From NCBI GenBank assembly GCA_003224525.1, contig QHZB01000249.1:1-53629 (forward strand): DNA of 53,629 nt, written 5' to 3'. This stretch comes from Acidobacteriota bacterium (GTDB lineage: Bacteria > Acidobacteriota > Terriglobia > Acidiferrales > UBA7541). The notes below the pieces were generated by a model. That model saw only the letters and a list, made by a program, of their open reading frames with translations, did not search any database and had not been told where the DNA came from. Position 1 is the stretch's first letter; each line of letters begins with the position of its first letter. The translations under genes were made by a program, and so were the position numbers. Below are positions 29,369-46,861 of the stretch, in pieces.

Positions 29369-32281
29369 TTACTTGGAACCAGCGACGCCAGCGGGCACCG
29401 GAACGCCGTCGCTTTCGGCGGCGCTGTGATTGCTAGAATTGTTGGAGAGGTTTCCGGCCAGCATGCGCCGGTACTTGCTGCGCTCGTCGAGGTTCATGTC
29501 TACGATCTCGAAGGCCATGTCTTGAGCGCGGGAGTCGCGCATGAGGGCCGTAGCCTGTAAGTTCCTCATGCCAATTTGCAATCTCAATTGTACCTGCGTC
29601 CCGGGCGTCAGGTGCCGGCTGAGGGTCGCAACGCCTCCGGTCAGGCTGGCGGTTTTGATCTCCATGGAACAACTTTCTTTGAGGTTCGTGCACACCGCCC
29701 TGACCGACTTCCGCAGCCGGACGCGCGCGTGCCGGCGCTGCCGCACAAATTTCGACGTGACTGGAATCTCCAGCGGTGCGAGCGTGAGGTCTTCCTTGTC
29801 AATTCCGCTCTTGGGCAGATAATCGCGAACCCAGTCCGGATCGAGTTTCTCGAGCGCCTGCAGCGCAGCGATGCGCAGTTCCTGCGGCTGGACCCAGCCA
29901 AACACTTTCTTGGCCTCGAGGAGGCGCTTTAAGGTGCTGCCCGATTCTGGCGCCTGAATTCTCCCCAGTGCTTCGATGGCCTTGACACGCAGATACGGTC
30001 CGCCACCGGGGGGCAAGTCGCCGTCGGCGAGGGTCAGCAGTTTGCCGAGCGCCTCGCGATCCGAGGTGACGCCGATCTCGTCGATCACCAGCGGCGTCAC
30101 CAGCGGATCCACGTGATCGATCAGCTCGAGCAGGATGTGGCACCTTCTGGCCGCTCCACTGGCGGAAATCTGCCGCACGATACGGTCTTGCGATGTCCGT
30201 GGAAATTCTTTCATTCGGCCCGGCAGATATACCATGACCGATTCCGGATCGAGCCTGCTCAGCAGCCCGGCCATCTCCACGGCCTCGGCCACCGGCCCGC
30301 CGCGCACCGTGCTGCGGAGATACTGAACGGCCTCTTCGCCCAGATCGCCCGCCAAATTCGCCACATGTTCGGAATCCTCACGCAGACTGCAACGATTGAA
30401 ACGCGCCGAGAGCTGCTCCATGGTCGTTTGCGGCATTAGTTTGAGAACATTGGTCAGCCCCGCAGCCACCTGGCGCGCCTTCAGCGCCTCCTCGACAAAC
30501 TCCGGCACGCGCTCCTCGATTCCCATTTTTGATCGCAGGCTGCGCGCGATTCCCGGCCGCTGCGACTCGACGCAGGCGACGAGATCGAGTGCCTGCTCCA
30601 TCGCCGGAAAATAGCGGCTGGTGGCCGCTTCCTGGCTCAGCCGTACGAAGGCCGCGCTCACCAACCCTTGGAGTTCCGAGTCCTGCTCCACGCTGAGCTG
30701 CAAACCAAGGTGCCGCAGGGCTTCGCTGAGCAACCTCGGATCGGCCTTGGCATACAGTTCGGCCATCTCGGAGAGTCCCACCGCGGTTTTCTTCCGCGCC
30801 TCGGCCTCTTCGCTGTCCGCGCAAGCTGCATAATTCTGAAGAATGCTGATGGCCTCGGCGATGTTGCCTTGCTCGATCAGTCCGCCCACATAGGAGTGCA
30901 CGTTGCGCGGCGGAATACACCACGCCTCTCCTGATAGGAGGACGGCGCGTTTGCCGCTTTCCGGCACCGCCGCCCAGAACTGCCGGTCGAGAATCTCGCG
31001 GTGCGATTGCACGAGCATCCCGGCTTCGCTCATCTTGTCTTCATGAGCGCCGAGAATCTTTCGCAGGTTCTCGATTTCTTGGTTCATGCGGTCGAGCATC
31101 TGGCGAACGGCGTTGACTTTGACTTCGCCGCGTTCAAACCGCTCCAGCGCGAAACGGATCGCCAGGTGTTCGGCGAGCTGCACGATCACCGACTCGTCCG
31201 GCTTGGCGTTGGGCGCTTGCGCCGCCAGGCTTGCGAGTGCTTGCTTCAACATGTCTTGCGCGCGGCCCGGCAATTGCGACACCTGCTCCTGGAACACACC
31301 CGCCGCAGCCACTCCACCTTGCCCCGTGCCGACGTGCCCAAAACTAGTCAGGGCGCTGAGAATTCCGAAGATCTCATCTTCGCTCGGCTCACCGTGCCCG
31401 CCGGTTCCGCTACCTCTTCCCGCACCAAGCCCAGCACCAAGCCCGGCACCGAGCCCAGCACCGATCGCCCCAAGAGAGCCAACTCCGGCACTGGACGCTG
31501 GCCCAGAAACGGGACCCACACCGCTACCGCCTGCAGTCCAAAAACCTGTACCCGGCCCAGTCCCAGTGCTTGTCCCACCGTCGGCCGCTCCTCCTCCATA
31601 ACCTGAGCCGCCTCCCGCGAGTCCGGCCGCACCAGAATCTCCCGCCCCCGCAGCTCCTCCGGCGGGCATTGGTCCCCCCGGGCCCGGTCCAGAAACTCCA
31701 CCGCTTTTCGAACCCTGCGCCGCGGCAATCAATTCGAGCAGCTTCTGGGGATCGTTCAACCACTGTCTGAATTCTTCTTGGTCGCCGCCAAGCGATGCGG
31801 CGGCAATCTGCGCGGCCATGCTCGCGTCTTTCAGCCGCGCATCGGTGGCCACGAAGTAAATCTCATTGATGTGGATTCCCTGCGCGCCCGCGAGAGCGGC
31901 TTTCAATTGCAGGGCAAGCTCGGCGGGTTTGGCTCTGCCGGTGGGAAAAGCGCGCACGAATCGGCCAATCTCTTCTTCCGTGACTGAAGGGAAAAACTGG
32001 ACGCTGGCCAGACCCGCCGCCGAAAGCAACTGCGCAAATTGCTTTTCAGCGGGTGAGCCTTCCAGGGGCACACCATCGAGCAGGAGCTGGGAATTTGTCG
32101 CTCCGAGCAATAGCCCCGAGTCCGTTCCCATAGGAATGGCGGTGCGCAGCTCCTGCCAGGCGGTCTGGAGCTGTTCGATGGTCCGGACATGCTCGTACCC
32201 GTACAGTCGGGCAAACTTCAAGAGTATGTTGAGACTTCTTACGAAGGCGCGTCCGGCCGCTTTTTTGGGGTCTGCTTTCAT
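29369..32281 (-). CDS. Large helical-repeat protein with degenerate PilZ-like C-terminus (copy 1)
   Basis: The 970-residue protein is not in a named family that I recognise. A conserved-looking N-terminal domain (1-185: AFVRSLNILLKFARLYGYEH...LLLDGVPL...RFVRAFP) is followed by a Gly/Ala-rich, very flexible linker (about 195-300). Then comes a long helical region with HEAT-like repeats (about 320-840) and a C-terminal beta domain. That domain has RRHAR, the RxxxR part of the PilZ c-di-GMP site. The second motif reads TASLTGG where D/NxSxxG is expected, so binding may be lost. No signal peptide. The next gene upstream on the same strand is a full-length paralogue. Confidence 0.8.
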   Translation of the reverse strand: MKADPKKAAGRAFVRSLNILLKFARLYGYEHVRTIEQLQTAWQELRTAIPMGTDSGLLLGATNSQLLLDGVPLEGSPAEKQFAQLLSAAGLASVQFFPSVTEEEIGRFVRAFPTGRAKPAELALQLKAALAGAQGIHINEIYFVATDARLKDASMAAQIAAASLGGDQEEFRQWLNDPQKLLELIAAAQGSKSGGVSGPGPGGPMPAGGAAGAGDSGAAGLAGGGSGYGGGAADGGTSTGTGPGTGFWTAGGSGVGPVSGPASSAGVGSLGAIGAGLGAGLGAGLGAGRGSGTGGHGEPSEDEIFGILSALTSFGHVGTGQGGVAAAGVFQEQVSQLPGRAQDMLKQALASLAAQAPNAKPDESVIVQLAEHLAIRFALERFERGEVKVNAVRQMLDRMNQEIENLRKILGAHEDKMSEAGMLVQSHREILDRQFWAAVPESGKRAVLLSGEAWCIPPRNVHSYVGGLIEQGNIAEAISILQNYAACADSEEAEARKKTAVGLSEMAELYAKADPRLLSEALRHLGLQLSVEQDSELQGLVSAAFVRLSQEAATSRYFPAMEQALDLVACVESQRPGIARSLRSKMGIEERVPEFVEEALKARQVAAGLTNVLKLMPQTTMEQLSARFNRCSLREDSEHVANLAGDLGEEAVQYLRSTVRGGPVAEAVEMAGLLSRLDPESVMVYLPGRMKEFPRTSQDRIVRQISASGAARRCHILLELIDHVDPLVTPLVIDEIGVTSDREALGKLLTLADGDLPPGGGPYLRVKAIEALGRIQAPESGSTLKRLLEAKKVFGWVQPQELRIAALQALEKLDPDWVRDYLPKSGIDKEDLTLAPLEIPVTSKFVRQRRHARVRLRKSVRAVCTNLKESCSMEIKTASLTGGVATLSRHLTPGTQVQLRLQIGMRNLQATALMRDSRAQDMAFEIVDMNLDERSKYRRMLAGNLSNNSSNHSAAESDGVPVPAGVAGSK

Positions 32282-32495: not shown

Positions 32496-35400
32496 CTAGC
32501 TCTTCGAGATGGCCACGCGCCCGCGGCGCCGCGTGCGATTGGTGACTTGCGCAACCATCGGCAGCCCACCCAGCTCCAGCAATAATTTCCGCAAGCGGTA
32601 ACGTTCATCCAGATCCATGTCCACGAATTCGAAAGCCATCGCCTGAGGCCGCGCTCCGCGGACAATGGCCTGCGCCTTGATGTTGCGCACGCCCAGCGAG
32701 AATTTCAGCGACAACAACGAGCCCGGAGCCAGATGGCGTTCCCCGGAACCAATTCCGCCCCCCAGGTTTAGCTCCGGAATGGACAGTTTGAAGTTTTCCC
32801 GCAAATTCGTTGTCGCCGCAATGAGGTTGCGCGAAAGCTTCAAGCGTGCGTAGCGCCGCTGTCGGATCACGGAAGCATTGGGATCGGGATCCGTGGGTTC
32901 GAGCGTCAATTCCTTGCGGTCAATTCCGCTGGCGGCAACCTTTTCCATACCCACTGCCTGATCGACGCGCAGTAACGCCTGCGCTGCAGCGATTCTCAAT
33001 TCGTTTGGGTACACCCAGCGCCAAACTTGCCGGGTTTCCAAAATATGCTGTAACAGCGCGCCGGACGCAGAAGCGCGCAATCGGCCGAGCGCCTCAACCG
33101 CTTTCACCCTCGTAAAGGGAGGCGTCTCGTCGTTCTGCATCAGTTCGATCAGTCGCGGAATGCAGATGGCTTGCCCGCTCATCCCCATTTCGTCGATGGC
33201 CAGCGGGCGAATCAGCACATCGAGCGAATCGTAGAGGGCCGTGAGCAACCGCGCCCGCTCCTCAGGTGGCGCTGCGGAAAGCTGCCGGACGGCCCGGTCA
33301 TGCGAAGAACGCGGCCACTGCGAAAGCCGCGCCGGCAGAATCTTCTCCACGTTCTCCGGGGATAGCTGACTCACCAAGCCGATGGTTTCGGCGGATTCGT
33401 TAGCGGGAGCGGTCTGCAGCGTTTCGAGGAGTCGTTGCGTGGCATCTTCTCCCAGGTTGCGGACAATCATGGTTAGCAGATCGCAATCCTCTCGGAATCC
33501 GCAGTGTCCGAATCGATTCGTTATATAGTGGATCGTGGCCTTGGGCATCAGGCTGAGGATATCCATCATTCCGTCCGCGATCTGGCCGCTGCGCATCGCT
33601 TCTTCGATGAATTCCGGCAGTCGTTCTTCCGCTCCGATCCGTGGCCGCAGGCTCTGCGTCGATCCCGGCCTCTGCGCCTCCACGTTATCGAGCGACGAGA
33701 GTGCTTGCTGCATCGCCGGGTAGCAGCGCTTGGAGGCCGCTTCCTGGCTCAATCTCACAAATGCGGCGCTCACTAGCGTTTGCAATTCCGGCTCACGTTC
33801 GATGGCCAACTGATTACCCAGGCGGCGAATCGCCTCCATCAAAGCGCTTCCGTCTCCGCTGCCGTACAGTTCCCCCAAATCCGAGAGTCCGATCGCCGTG
33901 GTTCGCCGTGCTTCCGGCGCTTCCAGCCCGACGCAGGAAGCGTATTTCATCAGGATCTCGTTGACAGTCTTGAGTTCCCCACGCCGCAGCATGTCTTCCA
34001 GGAAGGCGCGCACGTTGCGCGGCGGCACGCACCACGCTTCGTCCGACGTCAGCACCTCTTTCTTGTTCTCCTCCGGTACCTGCTCCCAGAATTCCTGGTC
34101 CAGTAACTCCGTATACGACTGCACGGAGAGCCCCGCCTGCGCCATCATGTCTTCCTGGGTGGAAAGGATCTTGCGCAGCGCTTCAATTTCCGTATTCATG
34201 CGGTCGAGCAGTTGTTTTACAGCGTTGACGCGCAGTTCGCCTTTTTCGTAACTGTCCAGCGCGAAGCGGATCGCCACGTGTTCCGCCAGTTTGAGCAGCA
34301 TTGGCTTGTCTGGCTTGGCATCGGGGGCCTGCGCCGCGAGTCCTGCCAAGGCCTGCTGCAGCGTGTACTGCGCACGCACCGGCATGGCGCTCAGGCGCGA
34401 TTGGAACGTTGGCACGTCCATGCGGTGTTCAGAATCTTTCCGCGATTTGCCCAGTTGCGCGAACAATCCCAGCATCGAACGAACGTCTTCTTCCTCGACA
34501 CTGAATCCGCCGCCTGTTCCCGCGCCCGTACCAGCTCCCGGTAGACTGGCAACTCCCGCAGTCGAGCCACCTCGCAACAGGGCCGAGGCGGTCAGCCATT
34601 TTCCGGGCCCGGCACTTTCAGTTCCCCCGGCCGTTCCGCCGCCGGTTCCGGTCCCTCCGCCGCCACCGCCGACCCCACCACCCCCGCCGCCACCGACTCC
34701 ACTGCCATCACCAACTCCACCACCACCGCCGCCACCTGCACCCGTTCCCCCACCAACTCCACGGCCCCCCGTGCCACCGGATTCCCACAAACCGGAACCG
34801 CCACCCGCCCCACTTCCAGGCGCGCCACGGCCTCCGCTCCCGGTCCCGCCGCCTGATCCTCCACCACCGCCCAGGCCGAATCCCGGGCCTGGGGTGCCGG
34901 AGCCGTGCCCCGGCCCGCCCATCCCGCCGCCGCCACCGCCGGTGGCGCGCATACTCTCCGCAGCCAGTATCATCTGCAGCATCTTGTTCGGGTCTTCGAA
35001 AAAGTCTTTGAACTTGTCGCCCGCCGCTCCGAGTACCTTCTGCGTAAGTTGTGCTGCAACCTTGATGCCCGCCACTGAAGCGTCTTCCGCAACGTAGCGG
35101 ATTTCATTCACCTTGATGCTGGTATCTCCCGCCAGCGCGGTTTTCAATTGTTCGGCGAGGGAAGAGGGTTTGGCGTTTCCGCTGGGGAAGGCGCGCACAA
35201 ATCGCGCGAATTGCGGCTGCGTGAGAGTCGGGGAAAAATGAATGCTCGCGATTCCCGAGGATATCAATAGCTGCGCGAAGCTTCGTTCGCCGGCGGCCGA
35301 ACCGAGTGGCACGCCGTCCAGCAGAATCTGGGTTCCCGACGCTCCTAGGAGCACTCCGCCGCCGCTGCTGTCATCCAGCGCACCGCGCAGTTCTTGCCAC

Positions 35401-35519
35401 GCTGTTTCGAACTGGGCCGCCGTCCGCGCGTGCCCGAATTCGTATAGACGTGCAAATTTCAGCAGAATGTTCAGGCTGCGGACAAACGCCCGCGCCCCGC
35501 CTCGTTGTTCCTGAATCAT
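32496..35519 (-). CDS. Large helical-repeat protein with degenerate PilZ-like C-terminus (copy 2)
   Basis: The 1007-residue paralogue of the next gene has the same order: N-terminal domain (AFVRSLNILLKFARLYEFGH), Gly-rich linker (about 195-310, runs of five or six Gly), helical repeats, and a PilZ-like end with RRYAR and ELNLGGG in place of D/NxSxxG. The C-terminus has an extra basic tail (NRTRRRGRVAISKS). Phrases such as WCVPPRNVRAFLEDML match WCIPPRNVHSYVGGLI of copy 1, so the pair arose by tandem duplication and has since diverged. It could be a c-di-GMP-linked scaffold, but that is inference. Confidence 0.8.
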   Translation of the reverse strand: MIQEQRGGARAFVRSLNILLKFARLYEFGHARTAAQFETAWQELRGALDDSSGGGVLLGASGTQILLDGVPLGSAAGERSFAQLLISSGIASIHFSPTLTQPQFARFVRAFPSGNAKPSSLAEQLKTALAGDTSIKVNEIRYVAEDASVAGIKVAAQLTQKVLGAAGDKFKDFFEDPNKMLQMILAAESMRATGGGGGGMGGPGHGSGTPGPGFGLGGGGGSGGGTGSGGRGAPGSGAGGGSGLWESGGTGGRGVGGGTGAGGGGGGGVGDGSGVGGGGGGGVGGGGGGTGTGGGTAGGTESAGPGKWLTASALLRGGSTAGVASLPGAGTGAGTGGGFSVEEEDVRSMLGLFAQLGKSRKDSEHRMDVPTFQSRLSAMPVRAQYTLQQALAGLAAQAPDAKPDKPMLLKLAEHVAIRFALDSYEKGELRVNAVKQLLDRMNTEIEALRKILSTQEDMMAQAGLSVQSYTELLDQEFWEQVPEENKKEVLTSDEAWCVPPRNVRAFLEDMLRRGELKTVNEILMKYASCVGLEAPEARRTTAIGLSDLGELYGSGDGSALMEAIRRLGNQLAIEREPELQTLVSAAFVRLSQEAASKRCYPAMQQALSSLDNVEAQRPGSTQSLRPRIGAEERLPEFIEEAMRSGQIADGMMDILSLMPKATIHYITNRFGHCGFREDCDLLTMIVRNLGEDATQRLLETLQTAPANESAETIGLVSQLSPENVEKILPARLSQWPRSSHDRAVRQLSAAPPEERARLLTALYDSLDVLIRPLAIDEMGMSGQAICIPRLIELMQNDETPPFTRVKAVEALGRLRASASGALLQHILETRQVWRWVYPNELRIAAAQALLRVDQAVGMEKVAASGIDRKELTLEPTDPDPNASVIRQRRYARLKLSRNLIAATTNLRENFKLSIPELNLGGGIGSGERHLAPGSLLSLKFSLGVRNIKAQAIVRGARPQAMAFEFVDMDLDERYRLRKLLLELGGLPMVAQVTNRTRRRGRVAISKS

Positions 35520-38158: not shown

Positions 38159-39859
38159 ATGGCCACAAACGACAGCTGCACAAGTCACCCCGACACGCCG
38201 CAGCCCGGCTTCCTCTCCCGCTACGTGTTCAGCACCAACCACAAGACCATCGGCCTCAACTATCTTTGGCTCGCGCTGTTCAGCGTTTTCCTTGGCTTGG
38301 CTATGTCGCTGCTCATGCGCATCCATCTCGTCTGGCCGGGAGCGCATCTCCCGTTCCTCCCGAGCCTCGGCAACTCGCCGGATCGTTTTGCCGCTCTCAC
38401 CACGCTCCATGGTTCGCTCATGGTTTTTCTGGTACTCACCGCCGCACCCCAGGCCGGATTCGGAAACTACTTCCTGCCGCTCCAGATTGGCGCACGCGAA
38501 GTGGCCTTCCCCACGCTGAACCTCCTCGCGTTCTGGGCCACCGTGGCCTCGTTCGTAGGCCTGACCGGCGCGTTCTTAATCTCCCCCCAATCGGGAATCA
38601 CGCTCTGGATCGTCAGCGTCGCCATCTTCTGCGCTGCATCTCTTTTCAACGCGCTCAATTTCAGCGTCACCACCATCGATCTCCGCGCCAAAGGAATGTC
38701 ACTCCCGCGCATGCCCATCACGGTGTGGGCGTGGTTCCTCAACGCCATCCTGGGCATGTTGATTTTCAGCATTCTCCTGGCGGCCTGCGCCTACCTGCTC
38801 TCGGATCGCCTCTTGAGCGCGCATTTTTTCCCCTCGCTGAATTTCATTGCCAATCAGCCGGCCAGTGTCGTCGCGAAGGCTGTTCCCGTTCTTTGGCAGC
38901 GCCTCTTCTGGTTTTTCGCGCAAGCCGAGGTCTACGTCGCCGTGCTTCCGTGTTTCGGCCTCACCACGCATTTGGTTTCCACGTTTTCCCGCAAGCCGGT
39001 TTGGAAGGAACGCCTCGTTGTTCTGGCGCTGTGCGGGGTGGGCCTCTTTGGCTTTTGCGTCTGGGGCCAGCACATGTTCTCCAGCGGCATGAACCCGTTT
39101 TCGCCCCTGGTCTTTTCGCTCTTGGCATCCTCCCTGGGATTGCCCGCCGCCATCCTTCTGCTCAGTTGGCTCGGTACACTCTGGAACGCGCGCATCCAGC
39201 TGAACACCGCAATGCTTTTTGCGCTCGGTTTCATTTCACTTTTTCTCTCCGGCGGACTCTCCGGGATTTTCCTCGCGCGCCACGATCTCGCCGCTGCTTC
39301 CGTCAGCGACGATTTCGTCACCGGCCATTTCCATCTCGTCATGGGCGTCGCGGCCACGTTCGCCATTCTTGGCGCACTGTTTTTCTGGTTCCCCAAACTT
39401 TTTGGCCGCCGCCTGAACGAACCGCTTGGCAAACTGCACTTCTGGATTACCTTCGCCGGCGTCTACTGCGTCTTCATGCCCATGCACTGGCTCGGCCTGA
39501 TTGCGCACTCACGCGTTTCACCGGACAGTCCGCTGCCCTCCGTCGCCGCCGCTGGCTCTTCGATGCGCACCTTCATCACCGTCGCCATTCTTCTCACGGT
39601 TTTTGCGCAGGGGCTCTTCCTCATCAATTTTCTTTGGAGCCTCATCCGCGGCGAAAAGGCCGAAGAATCGAACCCGTGGCGCGCTACCACTCTCGAATGG
39701 AGCGTACCCTCACCACCACCCCTCGATGATTTTGGCCTCAGCGACCCGGTCGTGTATCGTGGAGCTTACGAATTCAGCGTGCTGGATGTGGCCGAAGATT
39801 TCCTGCCCCAGCACCTTGCGCCGGAGCAAAGTGCCAAGGCCCGCGAGTCTGGAGAATAG
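38159..39859 (+). CDS. Cytochrome c oxidase subunit I homologue lacking CuB ligands
   Basis: The 566-residue integral membrane protein has about twelve helices. The heme a ligands are kept: His84 in TTLHGSLM (helix II) and His392, with the proximal heme a3 ligand His390, in GHFHLVMG (helix X). The CuB site is not. The usual GHPEVY is AQAEVY (Gln255 for the first His), and the usual HH pair is GQH (Gln304, His305). The cross-linking Tyr259 remains. So the heme frame persists without a normal copper centre, and ordinary oxygen reduction is doubtful. A subunit III homologue follows 11 bases later; no subunit II is seen. It could be a regulatory, NO-handling or structural relative. The start is ATG 38159. 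Confidence 0.88.
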   Translation: MATNDSCTSHPDTPQPGFLSRYVFSTNHKTIGLNYLWLALFSVFLGLAMSLLMRIHLVWPGAHLPFLPSLGNSPDRFAALTTLHGSLMVFLVLTAAPQAGFGNYFLPLQIGAREVAFPTLNLLAFWATVASFVGLTGAFLISPQSGITLWIVSVAIFCAASLFNALNFSVTTIDLRAKGMSLPRMPITVWAWFLNAILGMLIFSILLAACAYLLSDRLLSAHFFPSLNFIANQPASVVAKAVPVLWQRLFWFFAQAEVYVAVLPCFGLTTHLVSTFSRKPVWKERLVVLALCGVGLFGFCVWGQHMFSSGMNPFSPLVFSLLASSLGLPAAILLLSWLGTLWNARIQLNTAMLFALGFISLFLSGGLSGIFLARHDLAAASVSDDFVTGHFHLVMGVAATFAILGALFFWFPKLFGRRLNEPLGKLHFWITFAGVYCVFMPMHWLGLIAHSRVSPDSPLPSVAAAGSSMRTFITVAILLTVFAQGLFLINFLWSLIRGEKAEESNPWRATTLEWSVPSPPPLDDFGLSDPVVYRGAYEFSVLDVAEDFLPQHLAPEQSAKARESGE

Positions 39860-43399: not shown

Positions 43400-46300
43400 G
43401 TGAAACTGAGGTATCTACGAATTCTAGCATTAGTGATTTTGGCGTTGGGTTTGAGCTCCGCATTGGTTCAGCCAGCCAGCGCCGACGAACTCTACGGTCG
43501 CATTCGTGGCATAGCTTTAGACCCCACTGGCGCCGCTCTGCCCGGCGTGCAGTTGAAACTGACTAACGTTGGCACAGGGACAACGGAGGAGTCGGTCTCG
43601 GGTTCTGACGGTAGCTTTGCGTTCTCTAATCTCAAGCCCGGGGAGTACAAACTCGCCGCGACAAAAGCCAGTTTCAAGACCTTCCAGGTTAGTTCCATTC
43701 GCGTGGCGCCGAATGAAATCTACGTGCAGAACGTCAGCATGGAGTTGGGTACGATTAACGAAACGATTGAAGTGGCGGCCAACCAAGCCCAGGTTGAACA
43801 GACCAGCATTCAGCTGACGGCCTCGGTCACTTCCAAGACCATCACAGACCTTCCGCTAAATGGCCGGAACTGGATCGCCCTGCAGCAGACGCTGCCCGGA
43901 GTGGTTATTCCAGATACACGATTTAACAGCAACTACTCCACCAACGGCAGCCAAGGGCAGCAGAACAGTTATCTGATTAATGGCAACGACTACAACGATC
44001 TGCCACTGAACTCGCCATTAGCCCCGCCGAATCCTGATACGATTGAGGAAGTAAAGATGGTGACCAACACCATCAACCCGGAATTCGGTCGCAACTCGGG
44101 CGCCATCATGAATGCCGTCACCAGGTCGGGAACCAACAGCTTCCACGGTACGGCCTTCGACTTCTATCGCGACACGTTCCTGAACGTACATGATTTCTTC
44201 CACGCGAAGCCCCAGCCGTTTCACCAGAACCAGTACGGCGGCACGATCGGCGGACCGGTCTGGAAAAACAAGACTTTCTTCTTCTTTGGGCTGCAGAATA
44301 CTCGCGCTCGGCAGCCCGGGACGAACAGCAACGGCACGACCAACGTATTTACGCAGGACATGTTGAACGGCACATGGAATCCCGCGAAGATGAGCACTAC
44401 TAAGCAAAACCCGTTTCCGATCGTGGGCTCAAGCGGCGCGACCTACCCTGCCGGGACACCGTGGGCCACAATCTTTCCAACTGGGATTGTTCCGACAACG
44501 GATTACAATTCACTCGCGGCTTCGCTGGTGAAAAAGTTTGTGCCGCTGCCCAACTGCGGCACCGCCACATGCACGCTGTATTCGTTCCAGCCACTTACTC
44601 AACGTAAAGCCAACCAGTTTATCGGTCGCATGGATCAAAACTTCGGCTCGAAAGATTCGCTGTGGTTCTACGCTTACGCAAATGACGAACACACGCTTAA
44701 CGATATAGCGTTCAGCGCGGCCAGTCTGCCCGGGTTTGGTGACAAGAGCGCTCCTTATACCAAACAATTCACAGCGTCATGGCAACACACGATCAGTACC
44801 AACGTTGTGAACGAATTGCGCGCAGGCTACACGCGCTTCAATTTCGACACTGGCACACCACAGATGGCCGTGACGCCGGCCAGCGTCGGATTCACTAATA
44901 TCTTCCCGCAGATTCCGCAGGGCGCCGGCTATCCCAGGATGACACTGACGGGATACTTTAACCTGGGTTTTACTAGCAACGGTCCCCAGCCTCGCAAGGA
45001 CCAGACCTACCAGCTCAATGACAATTACAGCTGGGTCAAGGGTCGGCACAGCTTGAAGTTCGGGTACGACGGCCGCAAATTTCAGGTATGGAATCCTTTC
45101 GGCGCCCGCAACAACGGCGCCTTCTCCTTCAGTAATAGCGCCAAGTATTCGACCGGAGATCCGGGCCTGAACTTCCTTCTGGGCATTCCGACCAGCTACA
45201 ACCAAGGTTCCGGTCAGATAATCCTTGCCCAGGCTTACGAACACTACTTTTTCGCACAGGACCAATGGCGTGTGAAGAACAATCTAACTCTCACATTCGG
45301 CGCGGGATACCAGATCGATACTCCAATCGCGGAATATCAGAGCGCAGGGCTATCTCGCGCGTGCTTTATCCCCGATCTACAATCGAAGGTTTTCCCCTTG
45401 GGCGTCGCTCCCAATGGCAACCCCGCCGGATCTCCCGTCGGGTATGCTTTCCCCGGCGATCCGGGCTGCGACACAAAGGGAGGCGTGAGCACCAAGTTCA
45501 ACCACATCGGTCCGCGCGTGGGTTTTGCATACACCCCGAATTGGGGACGCCTTACTGGAGGCGCCGGCAAGACGTCCGTCCGCGCGGGCTTCGGTTTGTA
45601 CTTCAACCGCGGCGAAGAGGAGTTGAATCTGCAGGATTTGGGCTCACCACCGATCGGTCAAACCAGCAATGGCGTCGGTGACCTCGGGCTGGTTCCCTCG
45701 TTCCCCGATCCCTGGGCAGACGTTGCCGGAGGCGGAACGCTTAAAAACAAATTCCCTTATGTGGCGCCAACACCCGGAAGCCTCATCGATTTTGGCCAGT
45801 ACTTTCCGATGGGCATCAACACCGTAGATCATAATCTAACAACTCCTTATGCTATGAACTACAACCTAACCATCGAGCGCGAGATTCCGAGTAAAACGAT
45901 CTTGCGGATCAGTTATGTGGGTGCCAAGGGTCGCAATCTTATCACCTCGTATAGTTTCAATCCGATGACCCCGGCGGGCTTACAGACATGCTTGGTCACT
46001 CCGGCCTGCGCCAGCAACGGAGATGGCGCGCCGGTGAATTTCCCGAATCTGTTTTTGTACCCTGGCGACATCTGGGGCAACAGCGGCCAGCAGCACAGTA
46101 ATGGCTGGTCAAACTACAACGCCCTGCAGATCACCGCGGACAAGCGGATGAGCCACGGGCTGCAATTTCTCACCACCTATACGTGGTCGCACTCTCTTGA
46201 TACCGGCTCCAGCTTCGAGGACACCGCGTTCCTGACTGGCGGCGGATTCGATCCATTCGGTCGGCTCAGGCGTGACTACGGAAACTCGGCATTTGACGCT

Positions 46301-46861
46301 CGTCATCGCTTCACGCTTAGCTTGAGCTACGAATTTCCCAAGCCGTCGCTGGTGCCCAGACTTTTGGGTGGCTGGCGCGTGACCGGCCAAACCATCCTTC
46401 AGACGGGCTTGCCGATCAACTTCCAGGACAGCAATGAACTATCCCTGGTGTGCTCGACATCCTTCTCCTTCTATTCTTGTCCGGATCGTCCAGACCTGGT
46501 GAAGGCGCCTGTGGCGCTCAATCCGCGGAGTTCTACCACCCATCTCTGGTTTGACCCAGCCTCGTTCACGGATAATGCACTCGGCACCCTCGGCAATGTC
46601 ACCCGCGGCTTCTTCCACGGCCCGGGCTACTGGGGCACAAACTTCTCAATCCAAAAGGATACGAAGATCACCGAGGGCAAGACCTTCCAGGTGCGTTTGG
46701 AAGCGTTCAACGTGTTCAACCATGCAAACTTTGCCAATCCAGACGCCGACGTGGCCTCCCCAACCTTTGGCCAAATACGCAGCCTGCGAGCGTTTGCGGC
46801 TAGCGGACCCAGCCCCGAAGGTTCGCGACTGATCCAGTTGGCCGCGAAGTTTATTTTCTAA
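43400..46861 (+). CDS. Oar-type TonB-dependent outer-membrane receptor
   Basis: The 1153-residue protein has a signal peptide (MKLRYLRILALVILALGLSSALVQPASA) and a carboxypeptidase-regulatory-like Ig domain (about 30-120: GRIRGIALDPTGAALPGVQLKLTN). The plug domain carries DLPLNGRNWIALQQTLPGV and the plug-barrel Asn-rich loops, followed by a 22-strand-type barrel. It ends in Phe (LIQLAAKFIF), as outer-membrane barrels do. Such receptors are abundant in Acidobacteriota and are thought to import large organic molecules with TonB energy. The start is GTG 43400 with AGGAGG just upstream. A strong terminator follows. Truncated relatives lie downstream. Confidence 0.93.
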   Translation: MKLRYLRILALVILALGLSSALVQPASADELYGRIRGIALDPTGAALPGVQLKLTNVGTGTTEESVSGSDGSFAFSNLKPGEYKLAATKASFKTFQVSSIRVAPNEIYVQNVSMELGTINETIEVAANQAQVEQTSIQLTASVTSKTITDLPLNGRNWIALQQTLPGVVIPDTRFNSNYSTNGSQGQQNSYLINGNDYNDLPLNSPLAPPNPDTIEEVKMVTNTINPEFGRNSGAIMNAVTRSGTNSFHGTAFDFYRDTFLNVHDFFHAKPQPFHQNQYGGTIGGPVWKNKTFFFFGLQNTRARQPGTNSNGTTNVFTQDMLNGTWNPAKMSTTKQNPFPIVGSSGATYPAGTPWATIFPTGIVPTTDYNSLAASLVKKFVPLPNCGTATCTLYSFQPLTQRKANQFIGRMDQNFGSKDSLWFYAYANDEHTLNDIAFSAASLPGFGDKSAPYTKQFTASWQHTISTNVVNELRAGYTRFNFDTGTPQMAVTPASVGFTNIFPQIPQGAGYPRMTLTGYFNLGFTSNGPQPRKDQTYQLNDNYSWVKGRHSLKFGYDGRKFQVWNPFGARNNGAFSFSNSAKYSTGDPGLNFLLGIPTSYNQGSGQIILAQAYEHYFFAQDQWRVKNNLTLTFGAGYQIDTPIAEYQSAGLSRACFIPDLQSKVFPLGVAPNGNPAGSPVGYAFPGDPGCDTKGGVSTKFNHIGPRVGFAYTPNWGRLTGGAGKTSVRAGFGLYFNRGEEELNLQDLGSPPIGQTSNGVGDLGLVPSFPDPWADVAGGGTLKNKFPYVAPTPGSLIDFGQYFPMGINTVDHNLTTPYAMNYNLTIEREIPSKTILRISYVGAKGRNLITSYSFNPMTPAGLQTCLVTPACASNGDGAPVNFPNLFLYPGDIWGNSGQQHSNGWSNYNALQITADKRMSHGLQFLTTYTWSHSLDTGSSFEDTAFLTGGGFDPFGRLRRDYGNSAFDARHRFTLSLSYEFPKPSLVPRLLGGWRVTGQTILQTGLPINFQDSNELSLVCSTSFSFYSCPDRPDLVKAPVALNPRSSTTHLWFDPASFTDNALGTLGNVTRGFFHGPGYWGTNFSIQKDTKITEGKTFQVRLEAFNVFNHANFANPDADVASPTFGQIRSLRAFAASGPSPEGSRLIQLAAKFIF

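Follow-up and report, generated by a model that had tools for sequence, protein, structure and literature searches.

Can a subunit I homologue of cytochrome c oxidase that lacks most of its CuB site still be an oxidase, and, if not, what has it become? This question is raised by coxI*, a gene of an Acidobacteriota bacterium (assembly GCA_003224525.1, contig QHZB01000249.1) located in a stretch of 53,629 nucleotides that was analysed as a whole and is hereafter termed the window. The preliminary description had recognised a CoxI homologue, and our comparisons bear this out, since the product matches Pfam COX1 at 8.9e-99 and subunit I of the Paracoccus denitrificans cytochrome c oxidase (CcO; 1ar1_A) at 4.5e-84. 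Among PDB chains, the E-values range from 1.5e-87 for plant COX1 to 1.4e-60 for bo3, the nearest solved structures being the plant mitochondrial and Paracoccus CcO. The NCBIfam model CtaD likewise matches at 1.1e-126, yet the score of 423.5 bits lies far under the cut-off of 670.75 bits. An AlphaFold model with 12 long membrane helices was obtained from a 47-sequence alignment (pLDDT 80.1, pTM 0.85), which raised the pLDDT from 63.9, the value reached with 20 close orthologues only. In a Foldseek search with this model, all 50 matches listed are oxidase subunit I chains of CcO or quinol oxidases, with query-normalised TM scores of 0.75-0.80 among them. The predicted fold is thus an intact subunit I fold of the A-type heme-copper oxygen reductases, and tree and profiles likewise place CoxI* within the A-type oxidases.

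Residue numbering follows an alignment of CoxI* to P. denitrificans subunit I (Pd), the sequence of which was taken from the 1ar1_A alignment (Table 1). The reported changes of HPEVY to QAEVY and of the HH pair to QH, by which two of the three CuB histidines are lost, are confirmed by this alignment, in which H276 corresponds to Q255 and H325 to Q304. The window protein carries the motifs AQAEVY and GQHMFSSG, and P277 is replaced by A256. As the cross-link partner H276 is a glutamine, the His-Tyr cross-link cannot form at Y259. The three heme histidines and the tyrosine, described earlier as conserved, indeed align (H84, H390, H392 and Y259) and are invariant in the coxI* clade, as are H305, E257, W251 and R54. 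Heme binding is expected from these conserved ligands, the AlphaFold model being one of the protein only. In addition, the D-channel set comprising N103, E114, N121, N167 and E257 is retained in nearly all orthologues.

The loss of the copper site had been regarded as selective, in an otherwise well-kept protein. The loss of CuB stands, but neither qualification does: K354, H403/D404, R474 and the loop containing W164 are gone throughout the clade, so that the K-channel and the Mg site have disappeared along with the CuA subunit and the surface on which it docks. In the window protein T351 is replaced by A330, with alanine or serine across the clade, and R474, a heme-propionate arginine, by V453. 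The deleted loop comprises approximately 20 residues, carries W164 and faces subunit II. The K-channel, Mg junction, heme propionate and CuA-subunit-face roles of these residues are established for the P. denitrificans and bovine enzymes.

Table 1. Positions in the window of coxI*, its diagnostic residues and the adjoining coxIII gene.
Feature	Position	Strand	Basis or remark
coxI*, subunit I homologue of cytochrome c oxidase without CuB site	38159..39859	+	ATG start, 566 aa
H84, low-spin heme ligand (Pd H94), kept	38408..38410	+	Alignment; invariant in orthologue clade
E114 at the D-channel entrance, conservative replacement of Pd D124	38498..38500	+	Alignment
Deletion point, residues 143/144	38585..38590	+	Loop GW-[TV]-Y-P-[PL], Pd 154-172 including W164, gone in 26/26
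Q255, replaces CuB ligand H276	38921..38923	+	Alignment; Q 25/26, L 1/26
E257-V-Y259, with the retained D-channel Glu (Pd E278) and active-site Tyr (Pd Y280)	38927..38935	+	
Q304-H305, replaces CuB pair H325-H326	39068..39073	+	First His lost, second invariant
L333, replaces K-channel K354	39155..39157	+	L in 26/26
V382-S383-D384-D385, replaces H403-D404-T405-Y406	39302..39313	+	H403-D404 is the Mg/subunit-II junction
H390-F-H392, retained ligands of the high-spin heme (Pd H411) and the low-spin heme (Pd H413)	39326..39334	+	Alignment
coxIII, subunit III, 225 aa	39871..40548	+	Pfam COX3 1.1e-11; alignment; conserved beside coxI*

When 60 related genomes were searched, coxI* orthologues with 59-87% identity were found throughout a single genus of soil bacteria, Candidatus Acidiferrum of Acidobacteria subdivision 2. 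The loss of CuB is common to all 26 readable sequences, including that of the window, and a normal site occurs in none. At position 276, the 25 non-window orthologues contain glutamine (24) or leucine (one), and at position 325 the 26 sequences contain glutamine (17), glutamate (four), tyrosine (four) or leucine (one), and in no case histidine. Orthologues with normal HPEVY and HH, in which the preliminary description would have seen the sign of a local mutation, were sought and none was found; a normal site is present only in paralogues and in syntenic genes of other genera. Correspondingly, the readable coxI paralogues of the window genome (C57, C80 and C259) and the coxI relatives in other genera retain the CuB histidines. 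A local mutation or an assembly error is ruled out, the loss being common to 26 genomes. The open reading frame is intact in 25 of 27 genomes; one copy is cut by a contig end and another (G029) is in two pieces, and locus L106, split in the same way, probably represents the G029 copy. Spread of this one motif beyond the genus was tested with the degenerate pattern FAQ[A/S]EVY. In a class sample of 399 genomes the pattern was found in 25 genomes of the genus and in one other, there not in a cox gene, and in the phylum sample it was found in three genomes outside the genus, in none of them within a cox gene.

The strongest evidence on the origin of coxI* is provided by the gene order. In four genomes of other genera of the same family (G225, G162, G070 and G036), read upstream only as far as the fetched stretch, the genes run gap-pgk-tpiA-secG-coxII-coxI-coxIII-coxIII'-coxIV and the CuB site of coxI is normal (HPEVY/HH). 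In the Acidiferrum genomes G001 and G003 the order is gap-pgk-tpiA-secG-coxI*-coxIII, and G004 agrees as far as its contig extends. Given the shared place after secG, coxI* therefore stands where a complete oxidase operon stood, and its locus is without the CuA subunit, the second coxIII and the coxIV of the operon that it replaced. In the window genome, coxI*-coxIII is located elsewhere, and gap-pgk-tpiA-secG lies on contig C394 without adjoining cox genes. In the window, coxIII is the sole cox gene adjoining coxI*, and no coxII is present within a kilobase upstream or downstream. Aminotransferase genes come next downstream, and the upstream neighbour encodes a hypothetical protein for which no family match was obtained; neither a sensor domain nor a signalling gene was found beside coxI*.

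Two further features of this stretch were recorded. A gene at 43400-46861 (+) encodes a protein resembling TonB-dependent receptors, in which a carboxypeptidase-regulatory domain is combined with an outer-membrane barrel; a homologue is encoded downstream of coxI* in 13 of the compared loci. Moreover, two adjacent genes at 29369-32281 (-) and 32496-35519 (-) encode similar large proteins (970 and 1007 aa) that are rich in Gly in their central parts and for which HEAT-repeat matches are only weak.

A CuA subunit hidden elsewhere in the genome was considered and rejected for the genomes checked. Other canonical cox genes are present in the window genome, and the coxII genes found in the checked genomes can be assigned to other cox operons; in none of the seven genomes checked was there a spare coxII, the number of coxII genes being no higher than that of the other cox operons. 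In G035, which harbours coxI* and a single coxII, the latter lies on the contig of the other coxI of this genome. The lack of a spare coxII together with the missing docking loop therefore renders normal electron entry via cytochrome c and CuA unlikely. Judged by the normal operon at the corresponding spot in other genera of the family, coxI* is a canonical oxidase gene stripped of both copper sites and of electron entry.

What remains is best seen against the acidobacterial A-type subunit I of caa3/aa3-like operons, with which CoxI* shares the fold, the 12 helices, the heme ligands, the D-channel, the active-site tyrosine and glutamate, the CoxIII partner and the syntenic position. Unlike these oxidases, it is without two CuB histidines, the K-channel lysine, the Mg site, the subunit-II loop and a CuA subunit. 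Six conserved histidines are required of heme-copper oxygen reductases, and sequences without them have been discarded (PMC3084760). Four of the six are present in CoxI*, as in all 26 orthologues, and CoxI* should therefore not be called an oxidase. Moreover, without CuA subunit, docking loop, Mg junction and K-channel, CoxI* would not receive electrons from cytochrome c by the usual route, and for the same reason would not carry out four-electron, proton-pumping O2 reduction. It is thus very probably copper-free and not an oxidase, and has probably exchanged respiratory O2 reduction for another role.

The best overall explanation, which we favour with modest confidence, is that a former A-type subunit I now serves as a copper-free, di-heme, ligand-handling membrane protein together with CoxIII. 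The ancestor would have been an aa3/caa3-like subunit I, and the present product would be paired with CoxIII. A bis-His low-spin heme would be bound by H84 and H392 and a high-spin heme by the proximal H390. The former place of CuB would then be lined by one distal histidine (H305), Q255, the variable residue 304, Tyr259 and Glu257, a pocket which may resemble the distal side of globins or peroxidases more than a binuclear centre. The drift of position 304 (Pd 325) between Q, E, Y and L argues against a new metal ligand there, and we infer that the B site holds no metal. O2, NO or peroxide might be bound at the high-spin heme, either for signalling or for a slow reaction without outside electrons; candidate reactions are dismutation and the handling of peroxide or NO, with protons possibly supplied through the retained D-channel. 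From these residues, the function may be ligand sensing or electron-independent catalysis. The handling of small ligands as such is the more tentative part of this proposal, with chances slightly below even. More specifically, an electron-independent reaction of gas or peroxide by the heme pair and the D-channel, in a membrane dismutase or heme sensor that would be the first to derive from an A-type oxidase, is unlikely but worth stating.

The main rival to ligand handling is that CoxI* supports CoxIII structurally or in regulation. It would then be a redox-silent pseudo-enzyme, with or without hemes, and a structural, assembly or regulatory partner of CoxIII or of the canonical oxidases, possibly with the D-channel as a proton conduit. 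This agrees with the loss of electron entry and the retained D-channel residues, and with CoxIII being the constant partner, which even outlives coxI* in three genomes (G007, G010 and G033). However, the heme ligands, the tyrosine and the last CuB histidine are invariant, and a purely structural role would not need them. We regard this explanation as rather unlikely.

Ligand handling by a copper-free protein also has to be weighed against a function in NO chemistry. The putative NO dismutases of Methylomirabilis oxyfera lost one metal-site histidine, replaced by asparagine, together with the electron-entry site (PMC3413370), and are the nearest published parallel to the losses in CoxI*: both are heme-copper relatives in which metal-site histidine was lost along with the electron-entry site and the hemes were kept. 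On this model, CoxI* would be similar to a NO reductase or NO dismutase and contain another metal, for example Fe, in the B site, held by H305, E257/Q255 or Y259. In contrast to CoxI*, with its A-type ancestry, two lost histidines and an entirely missing CuA subunit, NO dismutases descend from qNOR and lost one histidine; their combination of qNOR ancestry, His to Asn and Glu to Gln replacements and a missing quinol site is not found in CoxI*. The NO reductases eNOR, sNOR, gNOR and CuANOR (PMC8756737, Table A4) are likewise derived from oxidases and changed in active-site residues. However, they contain Q, N or D at the position of the active-site tyrosine, and E, N, Q or D is found there in NORs in general (PMC8756737), whereas Y259 of CoxI* is invariant. 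A cupredoxin second subunit is predicted for sNOR, gNOR and eNOR (PMC8756737), and none accompanies CoxI*. The NOR motifs H-X-(Arom)-X-E and HHX(Arom)(Arom)X17E (PMC3084760) are missing from CoxI*, two of the three B-site histidines are gone, position 304 is variable, and no NirK above the cut-off was found in the genome. A NO reductase identity was rejected on motifs, tyrosine position and the lack of such a NirK, and the broader NO-type explanation is very unlikely.

A comparably low probability is assigned to CoxI* still being an oxygen reductase, perhaps a slow or incomplete one that produces superoxide or peroxide and is reduced by some other donor. The high-spin heme ligand, the tyrosine, the glutamate and the D-channel would suit such an activity, but both copper sites, the K-channel and the electron-entry residues are gone. 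The quinol site of the bo3 oxidase is formed by R71, D75, H98 and Q101, and these residues are missing from the corresponding positions of CoxI*. Cytochrome bd, mentioned here as the known alternative without copper, is a copper-free respiratory heme protein (PMC8951039), but its fold and ligands are unrelated to those of CoxI*.

The preliminary description had suggested a new function rather than decay. In a tree of 61 sequences, all coxI* genes group as a single clade inside the canonical coxI of Acidobacteriota; its stem measures 0.80 substitutions per site, and its deepest node, at which L031 branches in, has a support of only 68. The clade is under purifying selection: for 14 pairs of orthologues, Nei-Gojobori dN/dS values of 0.09-0.17 were obtained at dS of 0.25-1.3. 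The gene diverges faster than canonical coxI of the same genomes, with 74% versus 85% identity between G000 and G032. It is constrained and not decaying, but less tightly constrained than a working oxidase. At least three species of the genus lost coxI* and retained coxIII, which remains after secG in G007, G010 and G033. In a pgk-tpiA-secG tree, several deep nodes of which are weak, G007, G009 and G010 nest beside a coxI*-bearing species with support of 100, so the absence is a secondary loss; since some Acidiferrum species lost the gene, it is dispensable and not essential. A decaying relic, in which the copper losses would be the first stages of pseudogene formation once other oxidases had been acquired by the genus, is the least probable explanation, as the faster divergence, the long stem, the lost or split copies and the remaining oxidases that would suit it are opposed by dN/dS near 0.1, mostly intact reading frames and heme and pocket residues invariant across the whole identity range. 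The rejection of decay thus holds, with intact reading frames, 26 genomes and low dN/dS in its favour, and a new function of CoxI* is likely.

At the loci where coxI* was lost, solo coxIII genes remain in the secG region (L150, 6092-6769; L152, 7070-7861; L153, 6291-6971). In L150 and L153, a lipoprotein-like open reading frame of approximately 296 aa lies in between, the L153 copy of which has no Pfam match.

In the literature covered on CuB-less, acidobacterial and Ca. Acidiferrum oxidases, from which most subscription papers were absent, no description of such a protein was found. Filtering by six histidines in surveys of the superfamily (as in PMC3084760) would discard a lineage that sheds CuB unseen. 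As the canonical operon is still found at the same place in other genera of the family, the states before and after the loss of copper from an oxidase can be compared, and CoxI* would reveal the capabilities of the heme pair and the D-channel in the absence of CuB. Furthermore, the case cautions against annotating genes of this type as terminal oxidases in soil Acidobacteriota.

Two other groups of acidobacterial coxI genes deviate from the canonical sequence at other positions. A second group (L003/L059 of the window genome on C259, L098-L103 and L164-L166) kept HPEVY/HH, and a CuA subunit is present where the upstream gene is readable. In these sequences the K-channel lysine is replaced by V, I, M or L, Thr351 by alanine and the Mg ligand D404 by G or A, and they are predicted to be K-channel-less oxidases. 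In an Edaphobacter/Granulicella group (L107, L109-L115, L132 and L134), the CuB site of coxI is intact and the D-channel residue D124 is replaced by R, S, T, G or H, accompanied by D404N, mostly Y406F, and R474H.
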